Origin: Desulfosporosinus sp. FKB
Lineage (GTDB): Bacteria; Bacillota; Desulfitobacteriia; Desulfitobacteriales; Desulfitobacteriaceae
NCBI RefSeq assembly: GCF_002196705.1
Contig: NZ_NADJ01000026.1
Coordinates: forward strand, 1 to 64,000
DNA length: 64,000 nucleotides
Direction of reading: 5' to 3'
The notes beneath the pieces are model-generated. The model was not told the DNA's origin. It was given only the letters and a program-made list of their open reading frames with translations, and did not search any database. The translations under genes were made by a program, and so were the position numbers. This document shows, in pieces, positions 31,392 to 63,590 of this stretch (its first letter is position 1; each line of letters starts with the position of its first letter).

Positions 31392-31426
31392 CTCTGTCAC
31401 TCCTTCCGAAACTATTTTTGTCTATG

Positions 31427-31600
31427 TTAACGTTGTACCCAAAACCAAATAAAATTGTAGGCAAAATCATCTAATTTCTCCCATTCCTTTTTTACAATTT
31501 CCTCATTCCCAGGAAAATCTCCTAGTTCTTCGAGTTTTAATTCCCAGGGCACACAAACGCCCGGCTTGGGATTAATAAGTGCTTTTTCCTGATCTGACAT
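31427..31600 (-). CDS. 57-aa small protein in the corrinoid operon
   Basis: A short gene that automated calling may miss. ATG at 31598-31600 is preceded by a perfect AGGAGG. The product is acidic and aromatic-rich: it starts MSDQEKALINPKPGV, has a central PWELKLEELGDFPG and ends NFIWFWVQR with four aromatic residues. No transmembrane helix is convincing. It sits 18 bp after the UroD-like methyltransferase and 35 bp before the ASKHA reactivase, in the same orientation. No family recognised. It may be a small accessory subunit of the methyltransferase or reactivase, which is inferred from position. Confidence 0.7.
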   Translation of the reverse strand: MSDQEKALINPKPGVCVPWELKLEELGDFPGNEEIVKKEWEKLDDFAYNFIWFWVQR

Positions 31601-31618
31601 TAATTTTCCTCCTATCTT

Positions 31619-32791
31619 CTAATAAACCCCAAATTCCCGGGCAGCTTCGATCATGGTGATGAGATTTTCCTGTTTGGCATCTCCCATGATGACCCCGCCG
31701 GAATCCAAAATAAACCCGCCGTCACGGCCTAATTCGTCAATAGATCTTTTGACCTGCTCCCGAATCTTTTCCGGAGTTCCATAGGTTAACAGGGTCGTAG
31801 GCACACCACCCTGCAGACAGAACCTGCCGCCTAAAACTTCTTTTGCTTTCCTGGCATCTGTCGTATCAATTTGAAAGATAATACTTCTCTCAGGCAATTC
31901 GGCAATTTTCTCCAGATACGGAGTCCAATCACCTTCGGCATAAAACAACATCCGTTTGCCTTTGGCCCACAAGCCTTCAATCGTCGCCTTCAAGGAAGGC
32001 CAGTAGAAAGTTTCCCATTGACGGGGATTAAGGAAAGGATAAGCACCGCGATGCAGAGGGGCAAAGCAGGGGAAACGGGTATCTGCTCCGGCGCCGGCCA
32101 GACCACAATTAACGTTATGAGGAGTTATGGCCTCACAAGCGGCTAATACTTTCTCCGGACGACGGCGCAGATCCAGAAGAATTCCTTTCATGCCTCTCAG
32201 AGCATCCCCCAGAGTATCAAAAGGGGCTTTCGTAAATCCGGTTCCCTGCCCGACGATTCCATGTTCTTTGGTCCATTTTTCGTAAGCGGCTGCCGTTATG
32301 CTTCCGGACATCGCGAAAGCAGCCGCACCTTTGATGAGAGCGATTGTTGAGCGATATGATCCCGGATTGGCAAGTTCAGTACTTATGTTAGGCAAAAAAT
32401 GATTAACGAGCCATTCCGTCGGGCTGGCGGTAAATTCGTCATAATCATCGGGCTTCATATATTCTTCTTCATTGTATTGAAAGGTTGAGTTTTCATCGAC
32501 TCCGATACCTGGAAATTTATACAATTTTGAACCCATAGCATCAAACATCGGCGGCCACCACAGGCATGGACCACCCTTGAAAATATCAAAATCCAAGCCC
32601 GGCAGCATTTCCGAGACAATTGAGTTACTTTTATCAAGATCATAAAAAATTTCCTGGAACGTTGTACCTTTATACTTTACAACCCACTCCCCAATACCGA
32701 AGGCAACGGGAACCATATCTGGTTTTCCGCAATCCATAGCAGTGATGTAACGATTTAATCGTTGTTGATAAAGGGTTTCCTTATCGTTCAT
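31619..32791 (-). CDS. Uroporphyrinogen-decarboxylase-family corrinoid methyltransferase
   Basis: A 390-aa TIM-barrel protein of the UroD/MtaA superfamily. It is not a heme enzyme here, because it neighbours a corrinoid protein and its reactivase. The C-terminal pattern EGDWTPYLEKIAELPERS, then FCLQGGVPTTLLTYGTPEKI, then GGFILDSGGVIMGDAKQENL, is typical of the MtaA-like and O-demethylase group. The usual His/Cys zinc ligand before EGDW is Tyr-Ala here (FYAEGDW), so metal binding may differ. It could be the substrate:corrinoid methyltransferase (methyltransferase I) or the second methyltransferase. No MttB/MtgB-type gene is nearby. ATG 32791 with GGAAGGGG. Confidence 0.8.
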   Translation of the reverse strand: MNDKETLYQQRLNRYITAMDCGKPDMVPVAFGIGEWVVKYKGTTFQEIFYDLDKSNSIVSEMLPGLDFDIFKGGPCLWWPPMFDAMGSKLYKFPGIGVDENSTFQYNEEEYMKPDDYDEFTASPTEWLVNHFLPNISTELANPGSYRSTIALIKGAAAFAMSGSITAAAYEKWTKEHGIVGQGTGFTKAPFDTLGDALRGMKGILLDLRRRPEKVLAACEAITPHNVNCGLAGAGADTRFPCFAPLHRGAYPFLNPRQWETFYWPSLKATIEGLWAKGKRMLFYAEGDWTPYLEKIAELPERSIIFQIDTTDARKAKEVLGGRFCLQGGVPTTLLTYGTPEKIREQVKRSIDELGRDGGFILDSGGVIMGDAKQENLITMIEAAREFGVY

Positions 32792-33017
32792 AGTCCCTTA
32801 TACCCCTTCCTCTTAAAAACAGCCGCATCCATATCAAAAGCCCTATAGAGCGTTAAGAAATAGCGGTTGAACACAATCGCTTGATTAACCCAAATACTGC
32901 TTTGCCGGTAAAGATACAAAGTTTTGTCCAAAATAGATTAACCCTACATACAAAACGGTATTGGCACCATTGTAGTAGGGTATTAATGGTTTCATAACAT
33001 ATTTCGATAGTGTGGTC

Positions 33018-33671
33018 TCACGACTGTGAGACCGAACCCTCTCCGGTTCCTAAAATATTACGGTAGATCTTTAAGGCTTCTGTTACATCGTTAGCGTAAA
33101 AATCTGCCCCCGTGTATTCTTTTACCTGCTGATTAACCGGATACCCTCCAACTACAACTTTAACTTGATCTCTAAGTCCTGCATCAATGAGCAGATCCAC
33201 AACCTTTTTGATCGATCCGACACAAAAGGATAGCAAAACACTGATTCCTAAGATTACGGCCTTTGTTTCGCTTACCGCTTGAACAAATCTCTCGGGTGTT
33301 ACATCAACCCCTAAGTCAGAAACTTCGTAACCAGAAGAACGCAAAAGATAAATAATTATATTCTTACCCAGATCATGAATATCACCTTCGATGGTACCCA
33401 TGATGATCGGTTGAAATCCCTTATTGGATCCCTTGACAGGGATATGAGGTTCCAAAATTCTCATTACTTCTTTAAGAATTTCTTCAGACATGATAAGATC
33501 CGATAAAAAGTAATCGCTGTCACTGTACTTTTCTCCGACTATTTCCACACCCCGCCGGCAGCTCTCAATAATATCGACAGCGCTGCAGCCGGCCTGAATT
33601 CTTTCGTTTACCAGCCTTAACGTCTTTTCTTCATCAAGATTTGCCATTGCTATTTGCAGTTCGTCTTCCAC
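33018..33671 (-). CDS. Corrinoid (B12-binding) methyl-carrier protein, MtaC/MtbC type
   Basis: A 217-aa methyl carrier. The N-terminal helical cap (about 1-85) is followed by a B12-binding Rossmann domain with the lower-ligand motif GDIHDLGKNI (His near residue 110), ILGISVLLSFCVGS and a C-terminal VVGGYPVN. The methyl group is passed between cobalt and the UroD-type methyltransferase. GTG 33671 is eight bases after GGGGG and is preferred over the TTG at 33686. It begins about 20 bp after the GntR gene. A 226-bp gap separates it from the methyltransferase gene; an 8-bp hairpin (33014-33033) overlaps its stop codon. Confidence 0.88.
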   Translation of the reverse strand: MEDELQIAMANLDEEKTLRLVNERIQAGCSAVDIIESCRRGVEIVGEKYSDSDYFLSDLIMSEEILKEVMRILEPHIPVKGSNKGFQPIIMGTIEGDIHDLGKNIIIYLLRSSGYEVSDLGVDVTPERFVQAVSETKAVILGISVLLSFCVGSIKKVVDLLIDAGLRDQVKVVVGGYPVNQQVKEYTGADFYANDVTEALKIYRNILGTGEGSVSQS

Positions 33672-33690
33672 CTTATGAACCCCCAATTAG

Positions 33691-34458
33691 CTAGTCTTTT
33701 TTGTACCAGCCATCATAGCTGGTTAGTTTATACCGATCTCCTCTGTAAACAGCTTTACTCCACCCCACTGGTTTAAGGTCTGAATTATAAATGGTCTGCT
33801 CAATCAGAAAAACCGGGGCATGAGGAGGGATTCCTAGAATTAAGGCTTCTTCATGAGAACAGGACGCAACCTGTAAAACCTTCTTCGAACTCACCGGCAC
33901 ATATTCCGTATGCGCTGCTATTAGGCCCGGCAAACTTGGATCTTTTAGTTCTGATTCAAGGATCGGTTTACTTTTACTATAAATTGTGTATTTTACCTCA
34001 TAAGATAGCCGTTCATTTTCAGCCGCAAGTACCGTCCGAAAAAACAAAAACCTTTTGTCTTCCCCCTGAATCTCAAACTTCGCCTTAAGGGCTTCGTCTG
34101 ACCTAACAATTTTAGCTTCTAAGAGAGTTGTTTTATAATTAAGCCCTCTTTTTTTTATTTCTTGATTAAAATCATTTAATTCAAAAACGATATTATTCAG
34201 TTTGGGGGTCGCTACAAACGTACCTTTTCCCTGCTGAGCATAAACCATGCCCGCTGCCACCAGCTCGGAAATTGCCCTCCGTACCGTCATTCGACTTATT
34301 TCGTAGCGCATAGCGATATCGTTTTCTGTCGGTAATGACTCTCCTGGTTTCAAATCTCCTCGGCGAATCTGTCCCTCAAGCAGCTTAAAAAGCTGGTAGT
34401 ATATGGGGATAACTGAATTTTTATCGATGACTGTTTCTTCTTGACTCACCCAAAACAC
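33691..34458 (-). CDS. GntR family transcriptional regulator, HutC/UTRA type
   Basis: A 255-aa regulator with an N-terminal winged helix (IPIYYQLFKLLEGQIRRG, LPTENDIAMRYEISRMTVRRAISEL in parts) and a C-terminal UTRA effector domain (VLQVASCSHEEALILGIP, VFLIEQTIYNSD, YRGDRYKLT). It heads the corrinoid operon and probably controls it in response to a methylated substrate or product. Start is uncertain between GTG 34458 and GTG 34449. Confidence 0.9.
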   Translation of the reverse strand: MFWVSQEETVIDKNSVIPIYYQLFKLLEGQIRRGDLKPGESLPTENDIAMRYEISRMTVRRAISELVAAGMVYAQQGKGTFVATPKLNNIVFELNDFNQEIKKRGLNYKTTLLEAKIVRSDEALKAKFEIQGEDKRFLFFRTVLAAENERLSYEVKYTIYSKSKPILESELKDPSLPGLIAAHTEYVPVSSKKVLQVASCSHEEALILGIPPHAPVFLIEQTIYNSDLKPVGWSKAVYRGDRYKLTSYDGWYKKD

Positions 34459-46172: not shown

Positions 46173-46296
46173 TTCTTAATTGGCGAAAAATTTCCTTTTT
46201 TTGTCCCATAAACTTTCTGTATGGTTTGACACGAAAATACTCCCTAGTGACAACGACTTTTCTATATGTTAGTTTAAGAGCAAGGGAGTGATACAT

Positions 46297-48009
46297 TTGA
46301 ACTCATTATTCCTTGCTGACCTAATGGATCGAAATGTTAAGATACTCAGCTCTAAACCAACCCTTGCAAAGGCCTCCGAATTGCTTAATTCCCACCATCT
46401 TGTCCTGATGCAAAATGGCCAACCCTCTGAAGTCCTTGTTAGAGATTCAAAGTCTCTCAATATAGAGGCTTCTTCTTGGAAAAAGCCTCTAATTGCTTCC
46501 TTAGAAACTCAAGCACTATCCTTCTATGAAGAACATTTTGAAGATTTTCGCCCGGTGGTTATTATTGATCCTTCAGAGAGTATTATGGGAGTTATTTCAG
46601 CGGCCCAGTTAATACATAGACTTTTGAAACATTGTGAAATTACAAACTCATTTTTTGAAACGCTCCTCGACACTGTCAATGAAGCGGTCACCGTTGTTAC
46701 TAAAGAAGGAACCGTTAGCCATTGGAACTCAGTGGCTCAAGACACCTATTCAATCCCCCAAGGAAACATCCTGGGAAAACATATTGCTGACTTCTTCGAA
46801 CTCGAAACCTTGGAGACCTTAAAGATCTTAGACGAAGGTCGTCCCGTCCGCCAATCTTACCATAGTCCTCGCCCGGGAACCCATGTGCTCATCAATGCTT
46901 CTCCTGTCGTCTATAACGGAACAATCCTTGGCGCCATATCTTGCGAGCAGGATGTCACTCAAATTGTTCGACTGAACGAAAAACTGTCGAATACAAGCTC
47001 CGAACTGCGGGATCTGCAGAAAAAGATCCCCTCTCCTGAAGATCCTTTTAGTAAGATTATTGGCAAGGGGCAGTCCATTCGTCATACAATATCTGTTGCG
47101 CGCAAAATATCTTCAAGTGAAGCGACTGTTCTGATCACTGGAGAAAGCGGTGTCGGCAAAGAACTTTTCGCCCAGGCAATTCATATGGCCAGCCCCCGCT
47201 CTAAAAAACCTTTAATTACCCTTAATTGTGGTGCTATACCCGCAGCCCTCTTCGAAAGCGAGCTTTTCGGCTACCACGGCGGAGCTTTTACGGGAGCAGA
47301 AAGGAAAGGCAAACCCGGCAAATTGGAGCTGGCTCACGGAGGGACTCTTTTTCTTGATGAAGTTGGGGAATTGCCTCTGGGACTCCAAGTTAAACTCCTG
47401 CGTGTTCTCCAGGATCGCTGTTTTTATCGCTTGGGAGGAACGGAGCCCATCACTGTCAATACTCGCATTATTGCTGCCACAAACCGTAATTTAGAAAAAA
47501 TGATGCAAATGGGTGAATTTCGCGAAGACCTTTATTATCGTTTGAATGTTATTACCTTGGAAGTGCCGCCTCTCAGAGAACGTACTGAAGATATTCCGGA
47601 ATTGGCTCAAGCTTTTCTGCACGAATCCGCTCTCAAACACAACAGACCGATGCCATCCCTCGATCCCGCCGTCATCGTCGCCTTTCTCAACTATCACTGG
47701 CCCGGCAACGTTCGCGAACTTCACAATGTTGCCGAGCGCTTAGCAGTCTTGGCTGATGAAGGTATCATTGAAACCAAATATCTGCCTTTAGCCCTTAAAC
47801 GGTCCAAACTCGAACCCCTTCACTTGTCCGGCTCAATACGTTCCCAAATCAACTTCAACTCTTCTAAACAAGATAATAAGTCTAAAGAAATGGAAACTAT
47901 CTGCAGCATGCTTGAGAGAACCCACGGCAATAAAACAGCCGCAGCAAAACTTCTCGGTATTTCTCGCGGAACTCTTTATTATAAACTTAAACAGTACAAT
48001 TTGGGGTAA
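46297..48009 (+). CDS. Sigma-54-dependent transcriptional activator (CBS-like, PAS, AAA+, Fis)
   Basis: A 570-aa enhancer-binding protein. N-terminal CBS-type segment (about 1-115: VKILSSKPTLAKASELL, VVIIDPSESIMGVISAAQ), PAS domain (about 120-230: LLDTVNEAVTVVTKEGTV), AAA+ core with GESGVGKELFAQAIH, the sigma-54 contact loop GAFTGAERKGKPG, LFLDEVGELPL and the R-finger region, then a Fis-type HTH (GNKTAAAKLLGISRGTLYYKL). TTG 46297 is eight bases from GGGAG; a GTG at 46288 overlaps that site. The only such regulator in the window, so it is a candidate for both -24/-12 promoters seen (17438-17457 and 58041-58060). That link is inferred. Confidence 0.92.
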   Translation: MNSLFLADLMDRNVKILSSKPTLAKASELLNSHHLVLMQNGQPSEVLVRDSKSLNIEASSWKKPLIASLETQALSFYEEHFEDFRPVVIIDPSESIMGVISAAQLIHRLLKHCEITNSFFETLLDTVNEAVTVVTKEGTVSHWNSVAQDTYSIPQGNILGKHIADFFELETLETLKILDEGRPVRQSYHSPRPGTHVLINASPVVYNGTILGAISCEQDVTQIVRLNEKLSNTSSELRDLQKKIPSPEDPFSKIIGKGQSIRHTISVARKISSSEATVLITGESGVGKELFAQAIHMASPRSKKPLITLNCGAIPAALFESELFGYHGGAFTGAERKGKPGKLELAHGGTLFLDEVGELPLGLQVKLLRVLQDRCFYRLGGTEPITVNTRIIAATNRNLEKMMQMGEFREDLYYRLNVITLEVPPLRERTEDIPELAQAFLHESALKHNRPMPSLDPAVIVAFLNYHWPGNVRELHNVAERLAVLADEGIIETKYLPLALKRSKLEPLHLSGSIRSQINFNSSKQDNKSKEMETICSMLERTHGNKTAAAKLLGISRGTLYYKLKQYNLG

Positions 48010-52972: not shown

Positions 52973-54604
52973 TTATTTCTCCGTCATATAAGAATAACTA
53001 ACCACGGTGCGGGGAACCATCATCTCTTTGATAGCCCGTTGGCTTATCCAGCGATATAAGTTGATGGCACTGCCCGCTTTATCATTGGTGCCTGAAGCAC
53101 GGCTTCCGCCGAAGGGCTGTTGTCCGACAACGGCACCGGTCGGCTTGTCATTAATATAGAAATTTCCGGCCGCATGATCCAAAGCTTTAGCGATCTTGAT
53201 AACCGCAGCTCTGTCCTGAGCAAAAACAGCGCCCGTCAAGCCATAGATTGTTGCCGTATCGCAGGCTTTCAGGGTTTCTTCCAATTTATCATTGGGATAG
53301 ACATAAACGGTCATAACCGGTCCAAAGATTTCTTCCACCATAGTCTTAAAGTTGGGGGTCTTGGCTAAAATGACCGTCGGCTCGACAAAGTAACCAACGC
53401 TGTCATCGCAGCCGCCGCCGATAATGATCTCTGCATCCTGAGATTCTCTGGCATAATCAAGATAGTTTTTGATATTTAAGAAGGAATTACGATCAATGAC
53501 AGCATTCATGAGATTGGTAAAGTCGCGGACGTCACCCATCTTAATCTTGCCGATTTCCTCTTCAAGGCGCCCTTTTAATTGACTCCAAAGACTTTCCGGA
53601 ATGTAAGCACGAGAAGCAGCCGAGCATTTCTGCCCTTGATATTCATTAGCCCCAAGAACCATTGCACAGGTGAGGGCTTCGATATCTGCCGATTCATGGG
53701 CAAAGATAAAGTCCTTGCCGCCCGTTTCGCCGACAAGACGAGGATATGAAACATACTTAGCGATATTACTGCCAACTTGGTTCCAAATCCCGTTGAATAC
53801 TGCGGTAGAACCGGTAAAGTGGAAACCCGCCATCTTAGGATGGTTTACCACCACTCTGCCAAAGTCAGTGCCCCTGCAAGGCACAAAATTGATAACCCCG
53901 GCGGGTAAACCGGCTTCTATTAAGATTTGCATGAAGTAGTAGTTGGAAAGCACAGCCGTTGATGACGGTTTCCATAAGACAGTGTTGCCAACGATTGCCG
54001 GTGCTGTCGGGAGATTGCCGCCAATTGAGGTAAAGTTAAACGGTGTAATTGCCGCTACAAACCCGTCCAGAGCGCGATATTCGACGCGATTCCAGACACC
54101 GGGTGTATTCATAGGCTGCTGCTTGTAAATTTCTTGAGCGTAGTAAGTATTAAAACGCAGAAAATCTGCCAGTTCACAAATCGCATCAATTTCCGCTTGG
54201 AAGGGGTTTTTGCTTTGGCCAAGCATGCAAGAAGCAGCCACTTTAGCTCGATATTTTCCTGTTAACAGATCCGCTGCTTTTAAGAAAATCGTTGCTCTGT
54301 GCTCCCAGGGCATATTTTCCCATTCTTCTCTTGCGGCCTCTGCAGCTTCAATAGCCTGAAGCAGTTCTTTTTCTCCGGCAACATGGTAATCACCGAGGAC
54401 TTTTTGGTGATCATGTGGACAGATCATTGGGGCTTTATTTCCGGTCCGTATTTCCTTACCGCCAATAATTATCGGCACCTCAACAGGGTTCGCCAATTGA
54501 CGGTCAAGCTCTGCCTTTAAAGCAGCACGTTCCGGGGACCCCGGCATATACCCTTTTACGGGTTCATTCTCAGGAAATTCGAGCTCAAAATAGGCATTAT
54601 TCAT
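52973..54604 (-). CDS. pruA: L-glutamate gamma-semialdehyde (1-pyrroline-5-carboxylate) dehydrogenase
   Basis: A 543-aa aldehyde dehydrogenase oxidising P5C/glutamate semialdehyde to L-glutamate with NAD+. Motifs: AAITPFNFTSIGGNLPTAP (split; nucleotide site), WKPSSTAVLSNY, HFTGSTAVFNGIW, ETGGKDFIFAHESAD (general base Glu) and catalytic Cys in GQKCSAASRAYI. The C-terminus QQPFGGSRASGTNDKAG is typical of the PruA/RocA group. ATG 54604 follows GGAGG. It ends the operon of the iron-sulfur flavoprotein dehydrogenase, whose P5C product it would use; HypD makes the same compound. Confidence 0.95.
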   Translation of the reverse strand: MNNAYFELEFPENEPVKGYMPGSPERAALKAELDRQLANPVEVPIIIGGKEIRTGNKAPMICPHDHQKVLGDYHVAGEKELLQAIEAAEAAREEWENMPWEHRATIFLKAADLLTGKYRAKVAASCMLGQSKNPFQAEIDAICELADFLRFNTYYAQEIYKQQPMNTPGVWNRVEYRALDGFVAAITPFNFTSIGGNLPTAPAIVGNTVLWKPSSTAVLSNYYFMQILIEAGLPAGVINFVPCRGTDFGRVVVNHPKMAGFHFTGSTAVFNGIWNQVGSNIAKYVSYPRLVGETGGKDFIFAHESADIEALTCAMVLGANEYQGQKCSAASRAYIPESLWSQLKGRLEEEIGKIKMGDVRDFTNLMNAVIDRNSFLNIKNYLDYARESQDAEIIIGGGCDDSVGYFVEPTVILAKTPNFKTMVEEIFGPVMTVYVYPNDKLEETLKACDTATIYGLTGAVFAQDRAAVIKIAKALDHAAGNFYINDKPTGAVVGQQPFGGSRASGTNDKAGSAINLYRWISQRAIKEMMVPRTVVSYSYMTEK

Positions 54605-54683
54605 TTGCAATTCCTCCTTGTTATTCAGCATGTAAGTCTAAATTTATTCACTTGTTTGAGTACTGCACTCCATCCTGGCCGCC

Positions 54684-55835
54684 TTAAACGACGGCAGGCT
54701 CCAGCAATAACTCTCCCCGGCGGAAACGGTCTAAACCAAACTTTTCAATGGGCATAAAACACTCCTGACCGAGAATTTTCTGCGTTAAAAGAACGGCTGT
54801 CTGGGGACCGACCATGAAGCCATGGCCGCTGAACCCTGCAGCTACCCACATTCCTTGAGCATCGGGAATTTCATCGAAAATCGGATTAGCATCCGGGCTC
54901 ATATCATAAAGGCCTGACCATTGACGGACGACATGGAGATTCTTTAAAAGAGGTAAGACAGTGATGGCTTGACGGGCAACATCCTCAAGGAACTCCCAGC
55001 TGGAATGAATATTAAAATCTTTAGGTTCATTTGGATCGCCCACGCCCATGATAAAACTGCCGTGAGGCGTCTGCTGACAGTACAAACGATGATGTAAGGA
55101 AATAACCATAGGACCTTGGCAAGGTTCGACAGCTTCAGTTACCAGTGCTTGGTGCCGCTGAGGGTAAAGCGGAAGCTCAAAACCAACCATCTTACAGATT
55201 GCACCGGCGGCAAAACCGCAGGCATTAATTACGATGGAAGTGTTAATATCCCCTTTGGTCGTCTGAACTGCGGTGACCTTGCCTTTTTCCCGTTTAATGC
55301 CAGTAACCGTCGTATAGATTTCATAGTTGACTCCGAGCCGCCGCCCCGCTTTATAGTAGGCATCGACCACATGAAAAGGATTGGCATGGCCGTCTGATTG
55401 ACAGAAAGTCGCACCGATCAAACCGTTGATATTTAAATGAGGTACGATCTCTTGAGCTTCATGAGGCGTAATCATTTTGGTGGGAATCCCCAGGCTATGC
55501 TGGACAGCCACGTTTTTTTTGTACTGCTCCCATTCACTCTCAGTATAGGCTACCATCAGATAGCCGCCCTGTTTAAATTCAATGTCCAAATCATAATCCA
55601 GTTCTTCATTCATGCCTTCGAAGCGTTTTACGCTGTCCCGGGCAAGGATAGCATTGGTTTCTGTCCCCCATTGCTGCCGCACTCCGGCACCGCAGCGTCC
55701 TGTTGCTCCCGAGGCAAGGTATTGCTTTTCAATAACGACAATGTCTTTGACACCCCGCAGAGCCAATTCATAAGCCAAGGCGCAGCCTGTAATTCCTCCG
55801 CCGATAATGACAACGTTAGCTGTTTTCTGCAACTG
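54684..55835 (-). CDS. FAD-dependent amino-acid oxidoreductase subunit (DAO family; HcnC / proline dehydrogenase beta-like)
   Basis: A 383-aa catalytic flavoprotein. N-terminal FAD fold VVIIGGGITGCALAYELA, then SGATGRCGAGVRQQWGTE, and C-terminal AAGFSGHGFMVGPQTA. The family covers sarcosine, glycine, D-amino acid and L-proline dehydrogenases; the last is the beta subunit of archaeal dye-linked L-proline dehydrogenase. It is encoded with four iron-sulfur/flavin partners and pruA, which makes L-proline (or D-proline/hydroxyproline) the best substrate guess. TTG 55835 is eight bases after GGGGG; upstream GTG/TTG are possible. Overlaps the preceding gene. Confidence 0.85.
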   Translation of the reverse strand, partial: QLQKTANVVIIGGGITGCALAYELALRGVKDIVVIEKQYLASGATGRCGAGVRQQWGTETNAILARDSVKRFEGMNEELDYDLDIEFKQGGYLMVAYTESEWEQYKKNVAVQHSLGIPTKMITPHEAQEIVPHLNINGLIGATFCQSDGHANPFHVVDAYYKAGRRLGVNYEIYTTVTGIKREKGKVTAVQTTKGDINTSIVINACGFAAGAICKMVGFELPLYPQRHQALVTEAVEPCQGPMVISLHHRLYCQQTPHGSFIMGVGDPNEPKDFNIHSSWEFLEDVARQAITVLPLLKNLHVVRQWSGLYDMSPDANPIFDEIPDAQGMWVAAGFSGHGFMVGPQTAVLLTQKILGQECFMPIEKFGLDRFRRGELLLEPAVV

Positions 55836-56103
55836 ATTCACCCCCCGCAAAGGTTCCCAGTTTCACTGGTTTTACCGTCGGCCGAAAGGTTGGCATTAGA
55901 ACTTCTGAAACAGGAACCCCATAGGCCTTAGACAGTTCTTGAGCAATTAACATCCGGCAAGTCCGTCCCTGACAAGGTCCCATCCCGGCACGGAGGACCC
56001 GCTTTATTTCATCAATAGTCCGGTAGCCTTGCTTAATCAGGGCTTGTATCTCCTCTAAAGTAATATCTTCACAACGACAGACAATGGTCTCCTTATCCAG
56101 CAT
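55816..56103 (-). CDS. BFD-like [2Fe-2S] subunit of the oxidoreductase
   Basis: A 95-aa protein with the four-Cys pattern of bacterioferritin-associated ferredoxin domains: VCRCEDITLEEI and, about 32 residues on, GMGPCQGRTC. Such modules sit at the C-terminus of HcnB or as a separate small subunit (gamma in proline dehydrogenases). They pass electrons between the two flavoproteins. ATG follows GGAGGGG and overlaps the previous stop. The tail after residue 70 (PTFRPTVKPVKLG) is typical. Confidence 0.85.
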   Translation of the reverse strand: MLDKETIVCRCEDITLEEIQALIKQGYRTIDEIKRVLRAGMGPCQGRTCRMLIAQELSKAYGVPVSEVLMPTFRPTVKPVKLGTFAGGESVAENS

Positions 56104-56596
56104 GCCTAACCCCTCCTAAGCGAATACTGCGCACTTCCATGGCCAGTTCCTGGGGCACGGCCAGCCACACTGTGTAGGTTTTATTTTTCGGACCGCCGGA
56201 CTGAATCCTTTTCACCTTAAAGGTACCCAGTTCTTTTCCGGCCCGGTCAACCCCAACGACCTCCTCCTCAACCTGAGGGACCGGGAGATATTCATAAGGA
56301 ATTCTCACCATAGCTTCCTCCGCACTATAGGAACCATCAACCACAAAAATGGCTAGTCCCGGACAACGACTGAGACAGACTCCACAGCCATTGCATTTGT
56401 CGAAGTCCATTTTCGGCAAGTCGTTAATATCCTGCATCGGCAGGATGGCACCCTGCTTACAGGCTTCCGTACAGGGATTGCAGGGAATCTTTTGAAAGCA
56501 TTCGATAATGGCAACCGGCCCTTTCTTCAACCGCTCCTGAGATGGGGTGACAGTCTTTAAATCTTCAGTTGTGGGAATTCCGGTTTTGTTTAACAT
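56093..56596 (-). CDS. 4Fe-4S ferredoxin-type subunit of the oxidoreductase
   Basis: A 167-aa iron-sulfur protein. Two Cys clusters: PCNPCTEACKQGAI (about 38-51) and CNGCGVCLSRCPGLAIF (about 66-82), followed by a beta-rich C-terminal domain (about 95-160) found in subunits of this complex type. It would carry electrons from the flavoprotein core, perhaps to an external ferredoxin or membrane acceptor. ATG 56596 overlaps the stop of the upstream FAD/NAD gene. Confidence 0.82.
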   Translation of the reverse strand: MLNKTGIPTTEDLKTVTPSQERLKKGPVAIIECFQKIPCNPCTEACKQGAILPMQDINDLPKMDFDKCNGCGVCLSRCPGLAIFVVDGSYSAEEAMVRIPYEYLPVPQVEEEVVGVDRAGKELGTFKVKRIQSGGPKNKTYTVWLAVPQELAMEVRSIRLGGVRHAG

Positions 56597-57684
56597 CCTG
56601 CTCCCCCCTTTTCCATCAGTTTTTTAAGTCCTTGCATCGTCTTTTGGCCTGCCGGTCCCGCCCGCAGTTCACTTAACTCTGCCAAAGCCTCAGCTTGAAG
56701 TTTCGGAGCAACATCCTTGCCGTAAGCTAAACTATAAGCAGCGCTTATTCCAGCCAGGCGTCCTTCCACCATAGCAGAGCTGGCTTCTTCGACTCCGCTG
56801 ACGTCCCCGGCTACATAGAGACCGGGACGGGTGGTTTCCAAATAGTCATTTCTTAGGGGCACGTGTCCGGAAAGTTCCGGAATATAGTTCATCTGACAGT
56901 CTGCTTGGAAACAGAGTTCTGTCAAGGGGCTCAAACCGACAGCCAGACAAATTACATCGACTTTCAAGTCCTCTTCGCTCCCTGGAATAGGCTGCCAATT
57001 CTCGTCCAATTGACAGATGATTGCGCCCTCAACACTTTCCCCTCCGTAGGCTTCCTTAATGGTATGGGAGGTCAGAATTGGAACACCGGCACGCCGAATC
57101 TTCGAAGCGTGAACTAAATATCCGCCGATAGTTGGTGCAGCCTCGATGATAGCGGCAACATCGACTCCTGCTTGCAGCAATTGATAAGAAACAATAAGTC
57201 CGATATTTCCGGCACCGATCATAAGAACGCGTTGTCCCGGGACAATGCCATGGACATTCATAAGAGTTTGAACCGCCCCGGCTCCGTAGATCCCTGGCAT
57301 ATCGTTATTGGGGAAGGTTATCATTTTCTCGGAAGCACCCGTGGCAATGATAATTTTTTGCGGCTTTATTTTTAGATGTTGACCGTTCTTCTCAGCGGTA
57401 ACCACACCATCCTCATAAATTCCTAAAGCAGTGGTTCCTGACCAAACTTCAACCTTTGCCTTAGTGGAACACTGCTCAATCAGCAAATTTCCAATCTGAT
57501 AGCCCCGCTCTCCAGCATACTGTTTGCGGGAGCCAAAAAACTTATGGGTTTGTTTAACTAATTGGCCGCCGAGTTTATCATCTCTTTCAATAATAAGTAC
57601 CCCGGCCCCTAAATCAGCAGCCGCTGCAGCAGCACATAAACCGGCCGGTCCGCCGCCAATAATGAGAACTTCTATCTCTTTCAA
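56590..57684 (-). CDS. FAD/NAD(P)-binding oxidoreductase subunit (HcnB / proline dehydrogenase alpha-like)
   Basis: A 364-aa pyridine-nucleotide-disulfide-type flavoprotein. FAD site VLIIGGGPAGLCAAAAAAD at the start, a second dinucleotide site VLMIGAGNIGLIVSYQLL around residue 155, and the C-terminal FAD contact GLYVAGDVSGVEEASSAM. It lacks a redox CxxC. The TTG start at 57684 overlaps the stop of the preceding [2Fe-2S] gene as TTGA, eight bases after AAAGGGG. A GTG nine bases upstream is possible. It belongs to the five-gene complex. Confidence 0.85.
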   Translation of the reverse strand: MKEIEVLIIGGGPAGLCAAAAAADLGAGVLIIERDDKLGGQLVKQTHKFFGSRKQYAGERGYQIGNLLIEQCSTKAKVEVWSGTTALGIYEDGVVTAEKNGQHLKIKPQKIIIATGASEKMITFPNNDMPGIYGAGAVQTLMNVHGIVPGQRVLMIGAGNIGLIVSYQLLQAGVDVAAIIEAAPTIGGYLVHASKIRRAGVPILTSHTIKEAYGGESVEGAIICQLDENWQPIPGSEEDLKVDVICLAVGLSPLTELCFQADCQMNYIPELSGHVPLRNDYLETTRPGLYVAGDVSGVEEASSAMVEGRLAGISAAYSLAYGKDVAPKLQAEALAELSELRAGPAGQKTMQGLKKLMEKGGAGC

Positions 57685-57995
57685 CGCAGGCACCCCTTTC
57701 CTTGCTGCGTCTCCACCTGCATGCCCTGTTTAACTTTTTCCACACAAATCCTGACATTAGGTTCCCCATCAACGATCATAAGGCAGGACGAACAATTGCC
57801 GATGGCACAGAAAAGGCCCCTTGGCCTATGCTTTTCCGGACTATGACCTAAGACCCTAACCCCTGCTGCATGGAGGGCAGCGGCTATGGTCTCTCCTGCA
57901 TAACCTTTAATTTCCTGGCCGTCGAAGAAAAAGGTTATCTCTTCTCCTCGCTGGAAATCCAGAATTGGATGCTCATTAATTCGCACAGATGTCAC
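57681..57995 (-). CDS. [2Fe-2S] ferredoxin-like subunit (HcnA / sarcosine oxidase alpha N-terminal type)
   Basis: A 104-aa protein with the plant-type [2Fe-2S] pattern CAIGNCSSCLMIVDG and a later Cys (VRICVEK). The opening FFDGQEIKGYAGETIAAALHAAG matches HcnA and the N-terminus of sarcosine oxidase alpha. First gene of the sigma-54-controlled operon. The start is GTG 57995 or GTG 57986; GAGGAG lies just upstream. Confidence 0.85.
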   Translation of the reverse strand: MTSVRINEHPILDFQRGEEITFFFDGQEIKGYAGETIAAALHAAGVRVLGHSPEKHRPRGLFCAIGNCSSCLMIVDGEPNVRICVEKVKQGMQVETQQGKGCLR

Positions 57996-58040: not shown

Positions 58041-58060
58041 AGTTGCAATTTCTGTGCCAA
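58041..58060 (-). promoter_or_regulatory. Sigma-54 (-24/-12) promoter for the flavoprotein dehydrogenase-pruA operon
   Basis: On the minus strand: TTGGCAC-AGAAA-TTGCAA, a full consensus match with GG and GC separated by 10 bases. It lies about 45 bp upstream of the first start codon of the minus-strand operon. Confidence 0.9.
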
Positions 58061-58156: not shown

Positions 58157-59152
58157 ATGATACTGCTGAACCAAAGGGATATCCAACAAATCTTCACGAT
58201 GCATGATGCAGTAGAAGCAAATAAAAAAGCATTACGAATTTATTCAGAAGGCAGAAGCGTCGTCCCCTTAAGGATAAATATCAAGGCACCCGATTATGAT
58301 GGTCAGACTCTTTTTATGCCAGGCTACGTCCAAGAACTCGACAGTATGGGAGTTAAAGTCGTTTCCGTGTTTCCCCGCAATCAGGAAAAGGGTAAGCCTT
58401 CAGTCCCAGCAACAATGGTCTTAATTGATGGAGCAAGCGGCGAAGTATGCTGTATCCTGGACGGAACCTATCTTACTCAGCTTCGCACTGGAGCCGCTGC
58501 CGGAGCAGCTACCGATCTATTAGCCCGCTCGGATGCTCAAATAGGAGCGTTGATTGGAACAGGAGGCCAAGCCGGTACTCAACTTGAAGCCATGTTAACA
58601 GTAAGAAATCTTAAAGAGGTCCGGATTTTTAGCCGTAACCATGAACATGCCCGATCTTTCAGCGAACAAATGCAGCAACGGTTAGTGAACTTTGGAACAC
58701 TTCTTCGCCCTGTAGAAACCTCTGAAGAAGCGGTAACCGGTGCCGATATCATCACTGCTGTCACCACTTCATACCGGCCTGTTTTCCAGGGGCAGCTAAT
58801 AAAAGCCGGCGCACATATCAACGGTATTGGTTCCTATCTGCCAACAATGCAGGAACTCGACGAAGTTATCCTTCAGAAAGCCGCTAAGATCTTCTTTGAT
58901 TCTCAGGAAGCCGTCCTCGCTGAAGCCGGAGATTTTATTATTCCTTTAGAAAACGGCACCATCAGCAGTGATAAGTTTACAGGCGAAGTCGGCCAAGCTA
59001 TTTCAGGCCAACTTCCCGGACGGGAAACCGCCGAAGAAATTACACTTTTTAAAACTGTGGGAATGGCAGTATTAGATATTGTTACAGCTCATGAGATCTA
59101 CCAGAAAGCTTTAAATCAAGGGATTGGACTAAACTTTAATTTTAATTTCTGA
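58157..59152 (+). CDS. Ornithine cyclodeaminase-family reductase, probable delta1-pyrroline-2-carboxylate reductase
   Basis: A 331-aa member of the OCD/mu-crystallin family. Rossmann site IGALIGTGGQAGTQLEAML near residue 135, substrate region VSVFPRNQEKGKPSVPATM and LTQLRTGAAAGAATDLLA. The family includes ornithine cyclodeaminase, alanine dehydrogenase and pyrroline-2-carboxylate reductase (LhpI). It lies 15 bp before a trans-3-hydroxyproline dehydratase-like gene whose product is pyrroline-2-carboxylate, so reduction of that to L-proline is the best guess. ATG with GGAGGTG. Confidence 0.85.
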   Translation: MILLNQRDIQQIFTMHDAVEANKKALRIYSEGRSVVPLRINIKAPDYDGQTLFMPGYVQELDSMGVKVVSVFPRNQEKGKPSVPATMVLIDGASGEVCCILDGTYLTQLRTGAAAGAATDLLARSDAQIGALIGTGGQAGTQLEAMLTVRNLKEVRIFSRNHEHARSFSEQMQQRLVNFGTLLRPVETSEEAVTGADIITAVTTSYRPVFQGQLIKAGAHINGIGSYLPTMQELDEVILQKAAKIFFDSQEAVLAEAGDFIIPLENGTISSDKFTGEVGQAISGQLPGRETAEEITLFKTVGMAVLDIVTAHEIYQKALNQGIGLNFNFNF

Positions 59153-59167
59153 AAGGAATTGAAACAT

Positions 59168-60187
59168 ATGATGAATTTTAAACACTACATACATTGTATA
59201 GACGCCCATACGGCAGGCGAGCCTCTTAGGATTGTCACCTCCGGCTTTCCACCTATTCCTGGTAAAACGATGCTGGAAAAAAGGCAGTATATGCTGGAAA
59301 ACTATGACCACTTAAGAAAAATGATTATGTTAGAACCCCGGGGACACAGCGGAATGTACGGCTGCATTCTTGTGCCTGCCGTTACAGAGGATGGAGATTT
59401 CGGAGTCTTATTCACCCACAATGAAGGATTAAGCTCCATGTGCGGACATGGTATTATTGGGGTAACCAAGGTTGCTGTTGAAACCGGGATGATTGTTGCT
59501 CGTGAAGGTGAAACAATCGTTAAAATTGACTCACCGGCTGGAAGAATTACAGCCTTTGCCGATATCAAAAAAGGGGAAGTAGAACGAGTTAGATTTCAAA
59601 ATGTCCCCTGTTTTGTCTATCAAGAAAACATCACTGTCAAAGTCGAAGGTATCGGAGAGGTTACGGGTGATGTCGTTTATTGCGGCGCCTTTTATGTCTA
59701 TTTGGATTCCAAACAGATAAGCCTGTCAGTTACCCCGGAAAACACCGAAAAACTTGTCTCCATCGGCATGGAAATTAAACATAAAGTAATGTCAGTTATG
59801 GAATTTAATCATCCCTCATCCGGGGTCAATTGGCTATATGGAACGATTTTCTACGAAAGGCCTATCCGAGAAGGCAGCACACTTATGACCCGAAATGTTT
59901 GTATTTTTGCCGAGGGGCAAGTAGACCGTTCTCCTACAGGAACCGGAACAGGCGGGAGAGTTGCTCTGCACTATCATAAAGGTGATATGAAAAAGGACGA
60001 TACCCTGTTCAATTACAGCATTATTGACACTCCCTTTGCAGGAAAGTTTGTGGCAGAAACAAAGGTTGGAGACTTCCCTGCCATTCTTACAGAGGTATCA
60101 GGAACAGCACAAATCACCGGGTTTAATCAGTTAGTGCTTGATCCCAAGGACCCGCTGCCTGAGGGATTTAGGATCATAGGGAGTTAG
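59168..60187 (+). CDS. Proline racemase-family protein with Cys/Thr active site: probable trans-3-hydroxy-L-proline dehydratase
   Basis: A 339-aa protein of the PrdF/HypP family. The opening IDAHTAGEPLRIV and the first catalytic motif SSMCGHGIIG (Cys near residue 92) are intact. The second motif, DRSPCGTGT in racemases and epimerases, reads DRSPTGTGTGG: Thr (codon 59936-59938) replaces the second Cys. That Cys/Thr pair is the known mark of trans-3-hydroxy-L-proline dehydratases, which make delta1-pyrroline-2-carboxylate. A racemase or 4-hydroxyproline epimerase needs both Cys. The reductase for that product is encoded just upstream. ATG 59168 follows AAAGGA. Confidence 0.85.
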   Translation: MMNFKHYIHCIDAHTAGEPLRIVTSGFPPIPGKTMLEKRQYMLENYDHLRKMIMLEPRGHSGMYGCILVPAVTEDGDFGVLFTHNEGLSSMCGHGIIGVTKVAVETGMIVAREGETIVKIDSPAGRITAFADIKKGEVERVRFQNVPCFVYQENITVKVEGIGEVTGDVVYCGAFYVYLDSKQISLSVTPENTEKLVSIGMEIKHKVMSVMEFNHPSSGVNWLYGTIFYERPIREGSTLMTRNVCIFAEGQVDRSPTGTGTGGRVALHYHKGDMKKDDTLFNYSIIDTPFAGKFVAETKVGDFPAILTEVSGTAQITGFNQLVLDPKDPLPEGFRIIGS

Positions 60188-60418: not shown

Positions 60419-60772
60419 ATGGCTAATATCTTAATTGTTTCATGTGCAAAAATTCGTGATATTAGTTGTATTGCTTGCTTAAAATGCTTTAAAGCTGCTG
60501 AGCTAAAAGAGGGGGAATTTGCCAAATATGACTCGGTTCAGATTGTGGGCAACAGCAGCTGCGGTGATTGTCCCGGCCTAGTGATGCCTAAAGTCGGTTT
60601 AGTTATGGAAATGTCAGATTATTTAGATCGCGATATTGATGCCATTCATATTGGTAGCTGTGTCGTGAAAGCAAGAACTACTGCCGGCTGTCCAATCGAT
60701 CTTGACGGAATTAAAGCAAAACTAGAAGCAAAATTTGGTAAACCTGTCGTTTTAGGCACTCATAATTATTAA
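60419..60772 (+). CDS. CGGC-domain protein
   Basis: A 117-aa cysteine-rich protein. The CGGC-type motif appears as NSSCGDCPGLVMP near residue 45, with other Cys in VSCAKIRD, SCIACLKC and GSCVVKARTTAGCP. Such proteins are common in anaerobes and probably bind a metal or iron-sulfur cluster; function is not established. ATG with AGGGGG. It follows the 40-bp palindrome and ends at a strong terminator, so it is its own transcript. Its association with the proline locus may be incidental. Confidence 0.85.
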   Translation: MANILIVSCAKIRDISCIACLKCFKAAELKEGEFAKYDSVQIVGNSSCGDCPGLVMPKVGLVMEMSDYLDRDIDAIHIGSCVVKARTTAGCPIDLDGIKAKLEAKFGKPVVLGTHNY

Positions 60773-61107: not shown

Positions 61108-63465
61108 TTAGAAGGCTGTATGCTCTGTCCGGGCAATAATCTCCTCCTGCAGGGCTTCACTGAGATCGCAGAAATAATCGCTGTATCCGGCGACACGGAC
61201 GATGAGATCACGGTACTTTTCCGGTTCTTTCTGAGCAGCCCGCAGGGTTTTAGCACTGACAACATTAAACTGAATATGGTGACCGCTCAATTTGAAGTAG
61301 GAGCGAACGAGCTGGACTAATTTCTCAAGTCCTTCATCCCCCTCCACTACTTGGGGAGTAAACTTCAGATTCAGCAATGTCCCTCCTGTGCGGGCATGAT
61401 CCATTTTCGAGGCGGATTTGATAACCGCCGTCGGTCCTAAGCGATCAGACCCCTGAACAGGAGAAATCCCTTCGGAAAGCGGTTCCCAAGCCCTGCGGCC
61501 ATCAGCCGTAGCACCAATGACCGAGCCGAAATACACGTGGCAGGTAGTTGGCAGCATGTTAATGCGATAAACCCCGCCTTTCGTCGTTGGCCGCCCATTG
61601 ACTTCGTTATAATAGGCGTTGAAAATGTCAACCATGATTTCATCGGCGTAATCATCATCATTGCCAAAATGGGGAGTTTTGTTCAGCAACAACTGACGAA
61701 CTCCTTCGTATCCAGTGAAGTTTTGCTCTAACGCTTTCAGCAGTTGTTCCATGGTCAGGTCCTTTTGCTCATAAACATGACAACGGATGCCTGACAAGGT
61801 ATCTGTAAGGCTTCCCAGACCGACGCCTTGAATATAGTTCGTGTTATAGCGGGCACCGCCGTCGTTGTAATCCTTGCCTTTGAGAATGCAATCGTCGATG
61901 AGTATGGACAGAAAAGGTGAGGGCATATAGGCGGCATAAAGACGCTCGATGATATTGCTCCCCTTAACCTTAATGTCAATGAAATAATGAAGCTGCTTTT
62001 GAAAAGCCTCAAAAAGTTCTGCATAGGAACTAAAGTTTTGGGGATCACCGGTTTCCAGACCCAATTGCCGACCGGTCCGCGGATCGACCCCGTTGTGCAG
62101 GGTCAGTTCAAAAATCTTCGGCAAGTTGAAATACCCTGTAAGGATATAACTTTCTTTGCCAAAGGCGCCTGTCTCAACGCAGCCGCTGGTACCGCCTTGG
62201 CGGGCGTCCTCAATGGATTTACCCTGGCGCAGCAATTCTTCAACCACAGAGTCGGCATTAAAGACGGAAGGCTGACCCCAGCCTTTGCGGATGATGCGAG
62301 CCGCTCTTCTGATAAAACGATCAGGATTCTTTTTGCTCAGTTGAATATTGGAACTGGGCTGCAAAAGGCGCATTTCATCGATGACCTCTAAAACGAGGTA
62401 AGTGACATCATTGACTCCATCCGACCCATCCGCTTTAAGTCCGCCGCTGTTGATATTGGCGAAATCCGTATAAGTTCCGCTTTCCGCTGCGGTTACCCCC
62501 ACTTTAGGCGGTGCCGGCTGGTTGTTAAACTTGACCCAAAAACACTGCAAAAGTTCCTTTGCTTTTTCTTCGGTCAAAGTCCCATCAGCTAAACCTTTCT
62601 TATAAAAAGGATATAAATGCTGATCCAGCCTTCCCGGGTTAAAGGCATCCCATGTATTAAGTTCCAGGATAACACCGAGATGAACAAACCAGTAAGCCTG
62701 CAGAGCCTCCCAGAAATTTCTCGGGGCATGGGCAGGAACATGGGAACATACTTCGGCAATGGTTTCCAGTTCCACCTTGCGCAACGGGTCTGTCTCAATT
62801 TGGGCAATTTCTTTAGCTTTTTGGGCATACCGCTCAGCAAATGAAATGATCGCTTCAGCGCAGATCCTCATGGCCTTTAGTTCTTCCTGCTTCTGATACG
62901 CTTCTGCATCGTTTAAATAATCCAGCCTTGCCAAGTGATCATCAATTTTCCGGATAAAATTCAAAAAGCCGAAACGATAGATTTTATCATCAAGAACGGT
63001 ATGGCCTGGTGCCCTCTGTTCCATAAACTCCGTGAAAATACCGGCATCATATGCTTTTTTCCATTCCTCGGACATCTCCTGAAAAATCAAATCACGTATA
63101 GAATTTCCTTGCCAATAGGGAATAATTCGCTGTTCGTAAGCATCACGAACCTCCTGACTTACTTTAAAAGAAATCTTGGGCCGTGAGTCAAGAATATCTA
63201 AATCCTCAAGAGAGTGACAGCAAAGTTCAGGATAGGTATAAGTCGCCTTGGGCGCAGGCCCTCTCTCCCCTACGATCAATTCTCCCGGATTGAGGCAAAT
63301 CTCTTTGCGCTCCAGCATGTACTTAAAGGCCAACGCCCTGCGGACGGGTACGGAGGTATTGTTGGCTTGACGATAAAATTCCGTCATCAATTCTGCCCTT
63401 TCCGCTGAAATATAGGCTTCGGTTTCTAAACTCTGCTGCCGGAGCATGGTTACTCGTTCATTCAT
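61108..63465 (-). CDS. hypD: trans-4-hydroxy-L-proline dehydratase (glycyl radical enzyme)
   Basis: A 785-aa glycyl radical enzyme that removes water from trans-4-hydroxy-L-proline to give delta1-pyrroline-5-carboxylate. The thiyl Cys lies in GGTSGCVETGAFGKE near residue 430 and the radical Gly in RVAGYSDYF near the C-terminus. Many segments recall the C. difficile enzyme (EFMEQRAPGHTV, DAFNPGRLDQHL, GGARYNTNYIQGVG, ISPVQGSDRLGPTAVI). ATG 63465 (MNERVTMLR) follows GGGGAGG; the longer frame overlaps that site. The activase gene lies upstream in the same direction. Confidence 0.95.
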   Translation of the reverse strand: MNERVTMLRQQSLETEAYISAERAELMTEFYRQANNTSVPVRRALAFKYMLERKEICLNPGELIVGERGPAPKATYTYPELCCHSLEDLDILDSRPKISFKVSQEVRDAYEQRIIPYWQGNSIRDLIFQEMSEEWKKAYDAGIFTEFMEQRAPGHTVLDDKIYRFGFLNFIRKIDDHLARLDYLNDAEAYQKQEELKAMRICAEAIISFAERYAQKAKEIAQIETDPLRKVELETIAEVCSHVPAHAPRNFWEALQAYWFVHLGVILELNTWDAFNPGRLDQHLYPFYKKGLADGTLTEEKAKELLQCFWVKFNNQPAPPKVGVTAAESGTYTDFANINSGGLKADGSDGVNDVTYLVLEVIDEMRLLQPSSNIQLSKKNPDRFIRRAARIIRKGWGQPSVFNADSVVEELLRQGKSIEDARQGGTSGCVETGAFGKESYILTGYFNLPKIFELTLHNGVDPRTGRQLGLETGDPQNFSSYAELFEAFQKQLHYFIDIKVKGSNIIERLYAAYMPSPFLSILIDDCILKGKDYNDGGARYNTNYIQGVGLGSLTDTLSGIRCHVYEQKDLTMEQLLKALEQNFTGYEGVRQLLLNKTPHFGNDDDYADEIMVDIFNAYYNEVNGRPTTKGGVYRINMLPTTCHVYFGSVIGATADGRRAWEPLSEGISPVQGSDRLGPTAVIKSASKMDHARTGGTLLNLKFTPQVVEGDEGLEKLVQLVRSYFKLSGHHIQFNVVSAKTLRAAQKEPEKYRDLIVRVAGYSDYFCDLSEALQEEIIARTEHTAF

Positions 63466-63590
63466 TTCGACCTTTCCTCCCCTCGGAAACTTCAACATTT
63501 CTTGATACTTCTATTACCTTAATACTCAAAATACCAATACCTAAAAATAATGCTTGAATTACTTTACATTTTAAGATTTTAATACATAAC

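Follow-up and report, generated by a model that had tools for sequence, protein, structure and literature searches.

Two genes on the plus strand are the subject of this analysis. They lie in a 64,000-nt stretch of DNA (the window), positions 1–64000 of its contig in a 5.12-Mb Desulfosporosinus assembly that is 100% complete with 2.5% contamination. The first gene (58157–59152) encodes a 331-aa protein of the OCD/mu-crystallin family (PF02423, 248 bits), a predicted delta1-pyrroline-2-carboxylate (Pyr2C) reductase. The second (59168–60187) encodes a proline-racemase-family protein of 339 aa counted from its ATG (PF05544, 360 bits), a predicted trans-3-hydroxy-L-proline dehydratase (T3LHypD). 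The ATG at 59168 is the best start of this reading frame, with TTG at 59159 as an alternative, and the 15-bp spacing of the two genes given in a preliminary description of the locus is borne out by the gap at 59153–59167. The residues on which that description drew are encoded exactly as it had read them: Cys92 at the first catalytic position, in SSMCGHG (TGC, 59441–59443, plus strand), and Thr257 in place of the second Cys of racemases, in DRSPTGTG (ACA, 59936–59938, plus strand). Thr257 is shared by 6/6 full-length Cys/Thr-type orthologues within Desulfosporosinus and is thus not a sequencing accident. Both genes are intact and under purifying selection; dN/dS, where computable given that dS is saturated in most pairs, is 0.02–0.07 for the dehydratase-like gene and 0.05–0.08 for the OCD gene.

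Downstream of the pair, and convergent to it, lies the gene of the glycyl-radical trans-4-hydroxy-L-proline dehydratase HypD (61108–63498, minus strand; NF043068, 1375 bits at a cut-off of 1100). Right past the window edge, beside HypD, is an activase-like radical SAM gene (407 bits, cut-off 425), and the contig past the window also carries activases, a second glycyl-radical enzyme and a branched-chain-type ABC transporter. The second glycyl-radical enzyme (L041:5814–8207, minus strand; contig approximately 65813–68206) is 36% identical to HypD, has its own activase-like gene and adjoins HypD in several Desulfosporosinus genomes. Its best PDB match is 8id1 at 1244 bits, an entry titled simply 'Formate C-acetyltransferase', and its assignment as HplG was rejected (7vua, 370 bits). 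Two other features of the window are a CGGC-domain (PF08821) protein at 60419–60772 (plus strand), between the two dehydratase genes with no counterpart at the orthologous loci that were inspected, and a corrinoid methyltransferase cluster at 29556–34458 (minus strand) with a corrinoid activator-like protein with a 2Fe-2S N-terminus, a URO-D-type methyltransferase, a B12-binding protein and a GntR-like regulator.

Divergent from the pair is an operon on the minus strand (57995–52973) for a flavin dehydrogenase complex. It runs from a 2Fe-2S subunit (57681–57995; PF13510) through a SoxA-like FAD/pyridine-nucleotide-type subunit (56590–57693; PF07992), a 4Fe-4S subunit (56093–56596; Fer4 domains) and a DAO-family catalytic subunit, the predicted L-proline dehydrogenase (L-ProDH) beta subunit (54684–55850; PF01266), to a P5C (L-glutamate gamma-semialdehyde) dehydrogenase (52973–54631; TIGR01236, 785 bits, cut-off 613.6). 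The best PDB match of the DAO-family subunit is 1y56_B (284 bits, next 171), which was deposited as sarcosine oxidase and which we take to be the L-ProDH beta subunit of Pyrococcus horikoshii. Opine dehydrogenases form a subfamily close to L-ProDH. The first four genes (54684–57995, minus strand) correspond to the complete gene set of an archaeal heterotetrameric L-ProDH of the PDH1 type, and the operon as a whole is predicted to encode such a complex together with P5C dehydrogenase. Upstream of it, the sigma-54 −24/−12 promoter TGGCACAGAAATTGCA (58044–58059, minus strand) is an exact consensus match and the only one in the 64,000-nt window, and the TGGCAY-N5-TTGCW site is kept in 5/5 Desulfosporosinus loci sharing the gene order. 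A candidate regulator of the island is a PAS/sigma-54 activator resembling PrdR (46288–48009, plus strand; NF041552, 532 bits, under the 795-bit cut-off), which is conserved near the locus in genomes G009, G017 and G032.

The best PDB match of the racemase-family protein in a sequence search is 6r76, the T3LHypD of Thermococcus litoralis (364 bits), and the top four fold matches of its AlphaFold model (pLDDT 91) are all chains of 6r76, the first of them at 51% identity. Met91, Cys92, Tyr176, Thr257 and Thr259 align with Met103, Cys104, Tyr188, Thr268 and Thr270 of the T. litoralis enzyme, among which Met103, Tyr188 and Thr270 have been named previously (PMC9309405). At the corresponding sites, racemases have GGYLNMCGH, GGSFFAI or GGNFFAI, and SPCGTG; the second catalytic Cys of proline racemase and 4-hydroxyproline epimerase (SPCG) is absent from the window protein, where Thr257 stands instead. 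The preliminary description gave known T3LHypD the Cys/Thr pair; its statement that racemases and epimerases need two Cys goes too far, since epimerases with Ser/Cys and dehydratases with Ser/Thr are known (PMC4113996). In a maximum-likelihood tree of 66 proteins, the check that had been proposed for this protein, it falls with the characterised human and T. litoralis T3LHypD in one clade (support 99/94), which consists almost wholly of Cys/Thr proteins and leaves all proline-racemase references outside. The idea that the Cys/Thr pair arose separately in the Desulfosporosinus lineage was therefore rejected.

The best-scoring model for this protein is the NCBIfam dehydratase equivalog, at 394 bits and thus below the 540-bit cut-off, as are two other members of the clade (379 and 400 bits); this cut-off is a naming threshold, and is neither a biochemical test nor what delimits the dehydratase family. 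The window genome holds no second PF05544 gene above cut-off, and the D-proline reductase PrdA was not found in it, with positive controls from G118 and G301 scoring 979 and 951 bits. A Stickland proline racemase would thus be partnerless here. By every sequence criterion tested, the assignment of the racemase-family protein as a dehydratase is supported. Elsewhere in the tree, Cys/Cys proteins of Synergistaceae/Synergistales (L054, L055, L056, L065 and L079), some with the dehydratase-type GAFY, are nested inside the Cys/Thr clade. This may be a reversal from Thr to Cys and a return to two-Cys chemistry, but the AU test leaves the alternative standing (p = 0.34), and the reversal was not retained. 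A separate peculiarity is the motif YCGAFY (59678–59695), where Cys172 replaces the Gly that precedes GAFY, four residues ahead of the substrate-contacting Tyr176. Cys at this position also occurs in the other Desulfosporosinus dehydratases and at loci L044–L046 and L048, and it could allow redox control, comparable with the disulphide at the catalytic Cys of human L3HYPDH, which is thought to be regulatory.

The OCD-family protein has as its best PDB match 6t3e, the Pyr2C reductase of T. litoralis (254 bits), followed by alanine dehydrogenase (176 bits), and 6t3e is also at the top for its predicted fold (TM 0.94). The position of Asp228 (Pseudomonas putida OCD numbering), which has a catalytic role in the P. 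putida ornithine cyclodeaminase (PMC3497308), is Asp in 1u7h and 1omo and Tyr in the window protein. OCD proteins encoded no more than 2 kb from a Cys/Thr dehydratase never have Asp here; the residue is Tyr or Phe, and Trp in one case. The missing Asp argues against deamination and is no proof of the substrate. Tyr or Phe as a signature of Pyr2C reductase was dropped, as Phe and Trp also occur in OCD proteins near Cys/Cys enzymes and Val in 6t3e; the sole informative feature at this position in these sequences is the absence of Asp. A PF02423 search of the window genome found no second OCD gene. The proposed tree placement was obtained in part: the window protein groups only with T3HypD-linked OCD proteins, and it does not group specifically with 6t3e; the deep branches are weak and give no clear placement relative to the assayed Pyr2C reductases. 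Relatives at 50–54% identity in Enterococcus, Carnobacterium and Acetoanaerobium have no T3HypD alongside, and because they sit in other gene contexts, the subfamily is not bound to one substrate. Two of these, both 54% identical to the window protein, are on plasmids of Enterococcus faecalis (L199 6001–6981) and Carnobacterium viridans (L200 2648–3640), where the neighbouring genes encode a TauE/SafE exporter together with a regulator of TrmB-like or helix-turn-helix type, and no dehydratase gene is near; they probably act on a different imino-acid substrate. With this reserve, the OCD-family protein of the window is most likely a Pyr2C reductase, a substrate suggested mainly by context.

Among 398 genomes sampled evenly from the phylum (Bacillota), a same-strand OCD gene lies within 500 bp of 6/9 Cys/Thr proteins versus 2/38 Cys/Cys proteins (Fisher p = 2e-4), so that the pairing exceeds chance and is specific to the Cys/Thr type. 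Outside Desulfosporosinus, an OCD gene is found within 2 kb at 30/72 Cys/Thr loci, and within the genus it directly adjoins the dehydratase gene in four other genomes. The motifs are identical in the six Desulfosporosinus genomes that have the Cys/Thr form, and three others have a Cys/Cys form, while the dehydratase gene is absent from most genomes of the genus. Since no other genus among the 27 of the class searched has PF05544 at E ≤ 1e-30, the gene was probably gained by horizontal transfer. Reciprocal decay is seen in sister genomes: in G009 (L031 10472–11083) the OCD gene is mostly deleted to a remnant with the dehydratase intact, and in G015 (L039 9244–9673) the dehydratase is fragmented with the OCD gene intact. 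In G012 (L040 9155–9328) only a dehydratase fragment is left. The pairing is not obligatory, as the G009 case indicates.

Several other readings of the locus have to be weighed. Despite Thr257, the racemase-family protein might act as a proline racemase or hydroxyproline epimerase that supplies D-imino acids to the neighbouring DAO dehydrogenase, the latter then being an LhpB/LhpE-type D-hydroxyproline dehydrogenase. We regard this as very unlikely, because the protein sits in the dehydratase clade, the DAO subunit is closest to 1y56_B, presumably an archaeal L-ProDH beta subunit, the neighbours are P5C dehydrogenase and HypD with no Pyr4H2C deaminase, and PrdA is absent. These observations stand against a shared fold and family, the adjoining DAO-type dehydrogenase complex, and the existence of Ser/Cys epimerases and promiscuous members (PMC4113996).

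Alternatively, the dehydratase may be correctly assigned, with the OCD-family protein as a mere neighbour that works as ornithine cyclodeaminase, alanine dehydrogenase or reductase of a different imino acid. This is what its NCBIfam name would suggest, and it fits the 32% identity seen when its fold is aligned with that of alanine dehydrogenase 1omo, and the other settings of the relatives at 50–54% identity, the one from A. noterae being solitary and those from Enterococcus and Carnobacterium adjoining the TauE/SafE transporter. It is nevertheless improbable, given the Tyr that replaces the Asp228 of ornithine cyclodeaminase and 1omo, the gene's position beside the dehydratase in the four other Desulfosporosinus genomes, and the first rank of 6t3e by both sequence and fold. 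Hardly credible is a decaying remnant whose pathway no longer works. One partner is indeed broken in sister genomes (OCD in G009, dehydratase in G015 and G012) and most of the genus lacks the dehydratase, but both window reading frames are intact with low dN/dS where computable (0.02–0.08), and neither the sigma-54 site nor the neighbouring operons are broken.

We consider it highly probable that the gene pair serves trans-3-hydroxy-L-proline catabolism and feeds, with HypD and the divergent operon, toward glutamate. Drawing on sequence, residues, phylogeny, synteny, gene absence and a promoter motif, we propose the following for catalysis, substrates, flux and regulation. Cys92 would take the alpha-proton off trans-3-hydroxy-L-proline and the 3-hydroxyl would be expelled; because Thr257 would be unable to reprotonate from the opposite face, dehydration would occur instead of racemisation. 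The product would tautomerise to Pyr2C, and its reduction by the adjacent OCD-family enzyme, with NAD(P)H as reductant, would yield L-proline. The divergent operon, with its four-subunit archaeal-type L-ProDH, P5C dehydrogenase and sigma-54 promoter, would oxidise L-proline to glutamate, and trans-4-hydroxyproline would enter the shared P5C pool through HypD. The simplest model is an island that would turn trans-3- and trans-4-hydroxyproline and L-proline into glutamate anaerobically. The central proposal of the preliminary description, a reductase and Cys/Thr dehydratase module from trans-3-hydroxy-L-proline to L-proline, is supported by the dehydratase clade, the active-site residues, the 6r76 and 6t3e matches, the conserved pair, and the lack of PrdA and of a second PF05544 or OCD gene. 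Its prediction that annotation by name would miss the pathway also held: the dehydratase scores below its naming cut-off, and 'ornithine cyclodeaminase family protein' is the sole NCBIfam model matched by the OCD protein.

Comparable systems are known. In the T. litoralis cluster, T3LHypD (OCC_00387) and a Pyr2C reductase (OCC_00362(7)) are encoded with two L-ProDH operons (PMC4364671). The dehydratase is orthologous to the window protein (52% identity), the Pyr2C reductase is likewise of the OCD family (40%), and flavin/FeS L-ProDH genes are clustered in both; however, the archaeon also has a Cys/Cys ProR/HypE (OCC_00372), which the window genome is without, and the window adds P5C dehydrogenase, HypD and the sigma-54 promoter. 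Pairs of t3HypD and OCD-superfamily Pyr2C reductase from Bacilli (navy cluster 5) have been assayed as purified proteins (Zhao et al. 2014 eLife, PMC4113996). The two reactions, the two superfamilies and the co-encoding match the window pair, known here from its sequence, whereas the hosts are species of Bacilli and different groups use separate OCD sublineages. Human L3HYPDH (C14orf149; 7qpo) shares the clade and the pair (Cys104/Thr273) and is 42% identical to the window protein, but it is eukaryotic with no operon, and it has a Cys104–Cys137 disulphide with a presumed regulatory role (PMC9309405). HypD itself links the window to the HypD pathway (PMC7077986), in which P5C is converted to proline by P5C reductase; by contrast, the P5C dehydrogenase and L-ProDH complex of the window point to glutamate, and a second dehydratase, predicted for the 3-hydroxy isomer, is linked. 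Work of 2012–2014 established both reactions, the Cys/Thr rule and the partnership with an OCD protein (PMC4113996; Visser 2012 and Watanabe 2014, both cited in PMC4364671). Enzymology and gene pairing, both published in 2014, are already known, and the locus brings no new chemistry.

The sole part that may be new is the pairing of HypD with a T3LHypD-type dehydratase, recurring in several phyla. In the 398-genome sample, with phylogeny uncorrected, HypD is present in 8/9 Cys/Thr genomes versus 59/389 others (p = 3e-6), and Cys/Cys-only genomes are also enriched (12/33, p = 0.005). At 10 further loci, no more than 10 kb separates HypD from the dehydratase gene; most of these are in MAGs, where misbinning is possible, and they come from Thermodesulfobacteriota, Bipolaricaulota, Caldisericota, Ignavibacteriota, a Thermococci MAG and an unplaced MAG. 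A literature search found no description of a T3HypD–HypD linkage, which is weak evidence of novelty as key subscription papers were outside its coverage. We tentatively suggest, as a possibility somewhat short of probable, that anaerobes of several phyla have a module of linked genes for collagen hydroxyproline. Two dehydratases, a cofactor-free one of the Cys/Thr type acting on the 3-hydroxy isomer and a glycyl-radical one acting on the 4-hydroxy isomer, would supply one L-proline/P5C pool, directed in Desulfosporosinus to glutamate under sigma-54 control.

The locus mainly offers a helpful correction of annotation and has a limited novel aspect. The reading proposed here corrects an annotation as proline racemase plus ornithine cyclodeaminase, which would imply the wrong metabolism. 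The recurring linkage of 3-hydroxy and 4-hydroxy dehydratases in unrelated anaerobes could merit a short comparative study. Trans-3-hydroxyproline is a minor building block of collagen, and for Desulfosporosinus, an anaerobic sulfate reducer, the locus predicts that both hydroxyproline isomers of collagen can be taken to glutamate. If the linked module is real, a sulfate reducer could respire collagen imino acids.
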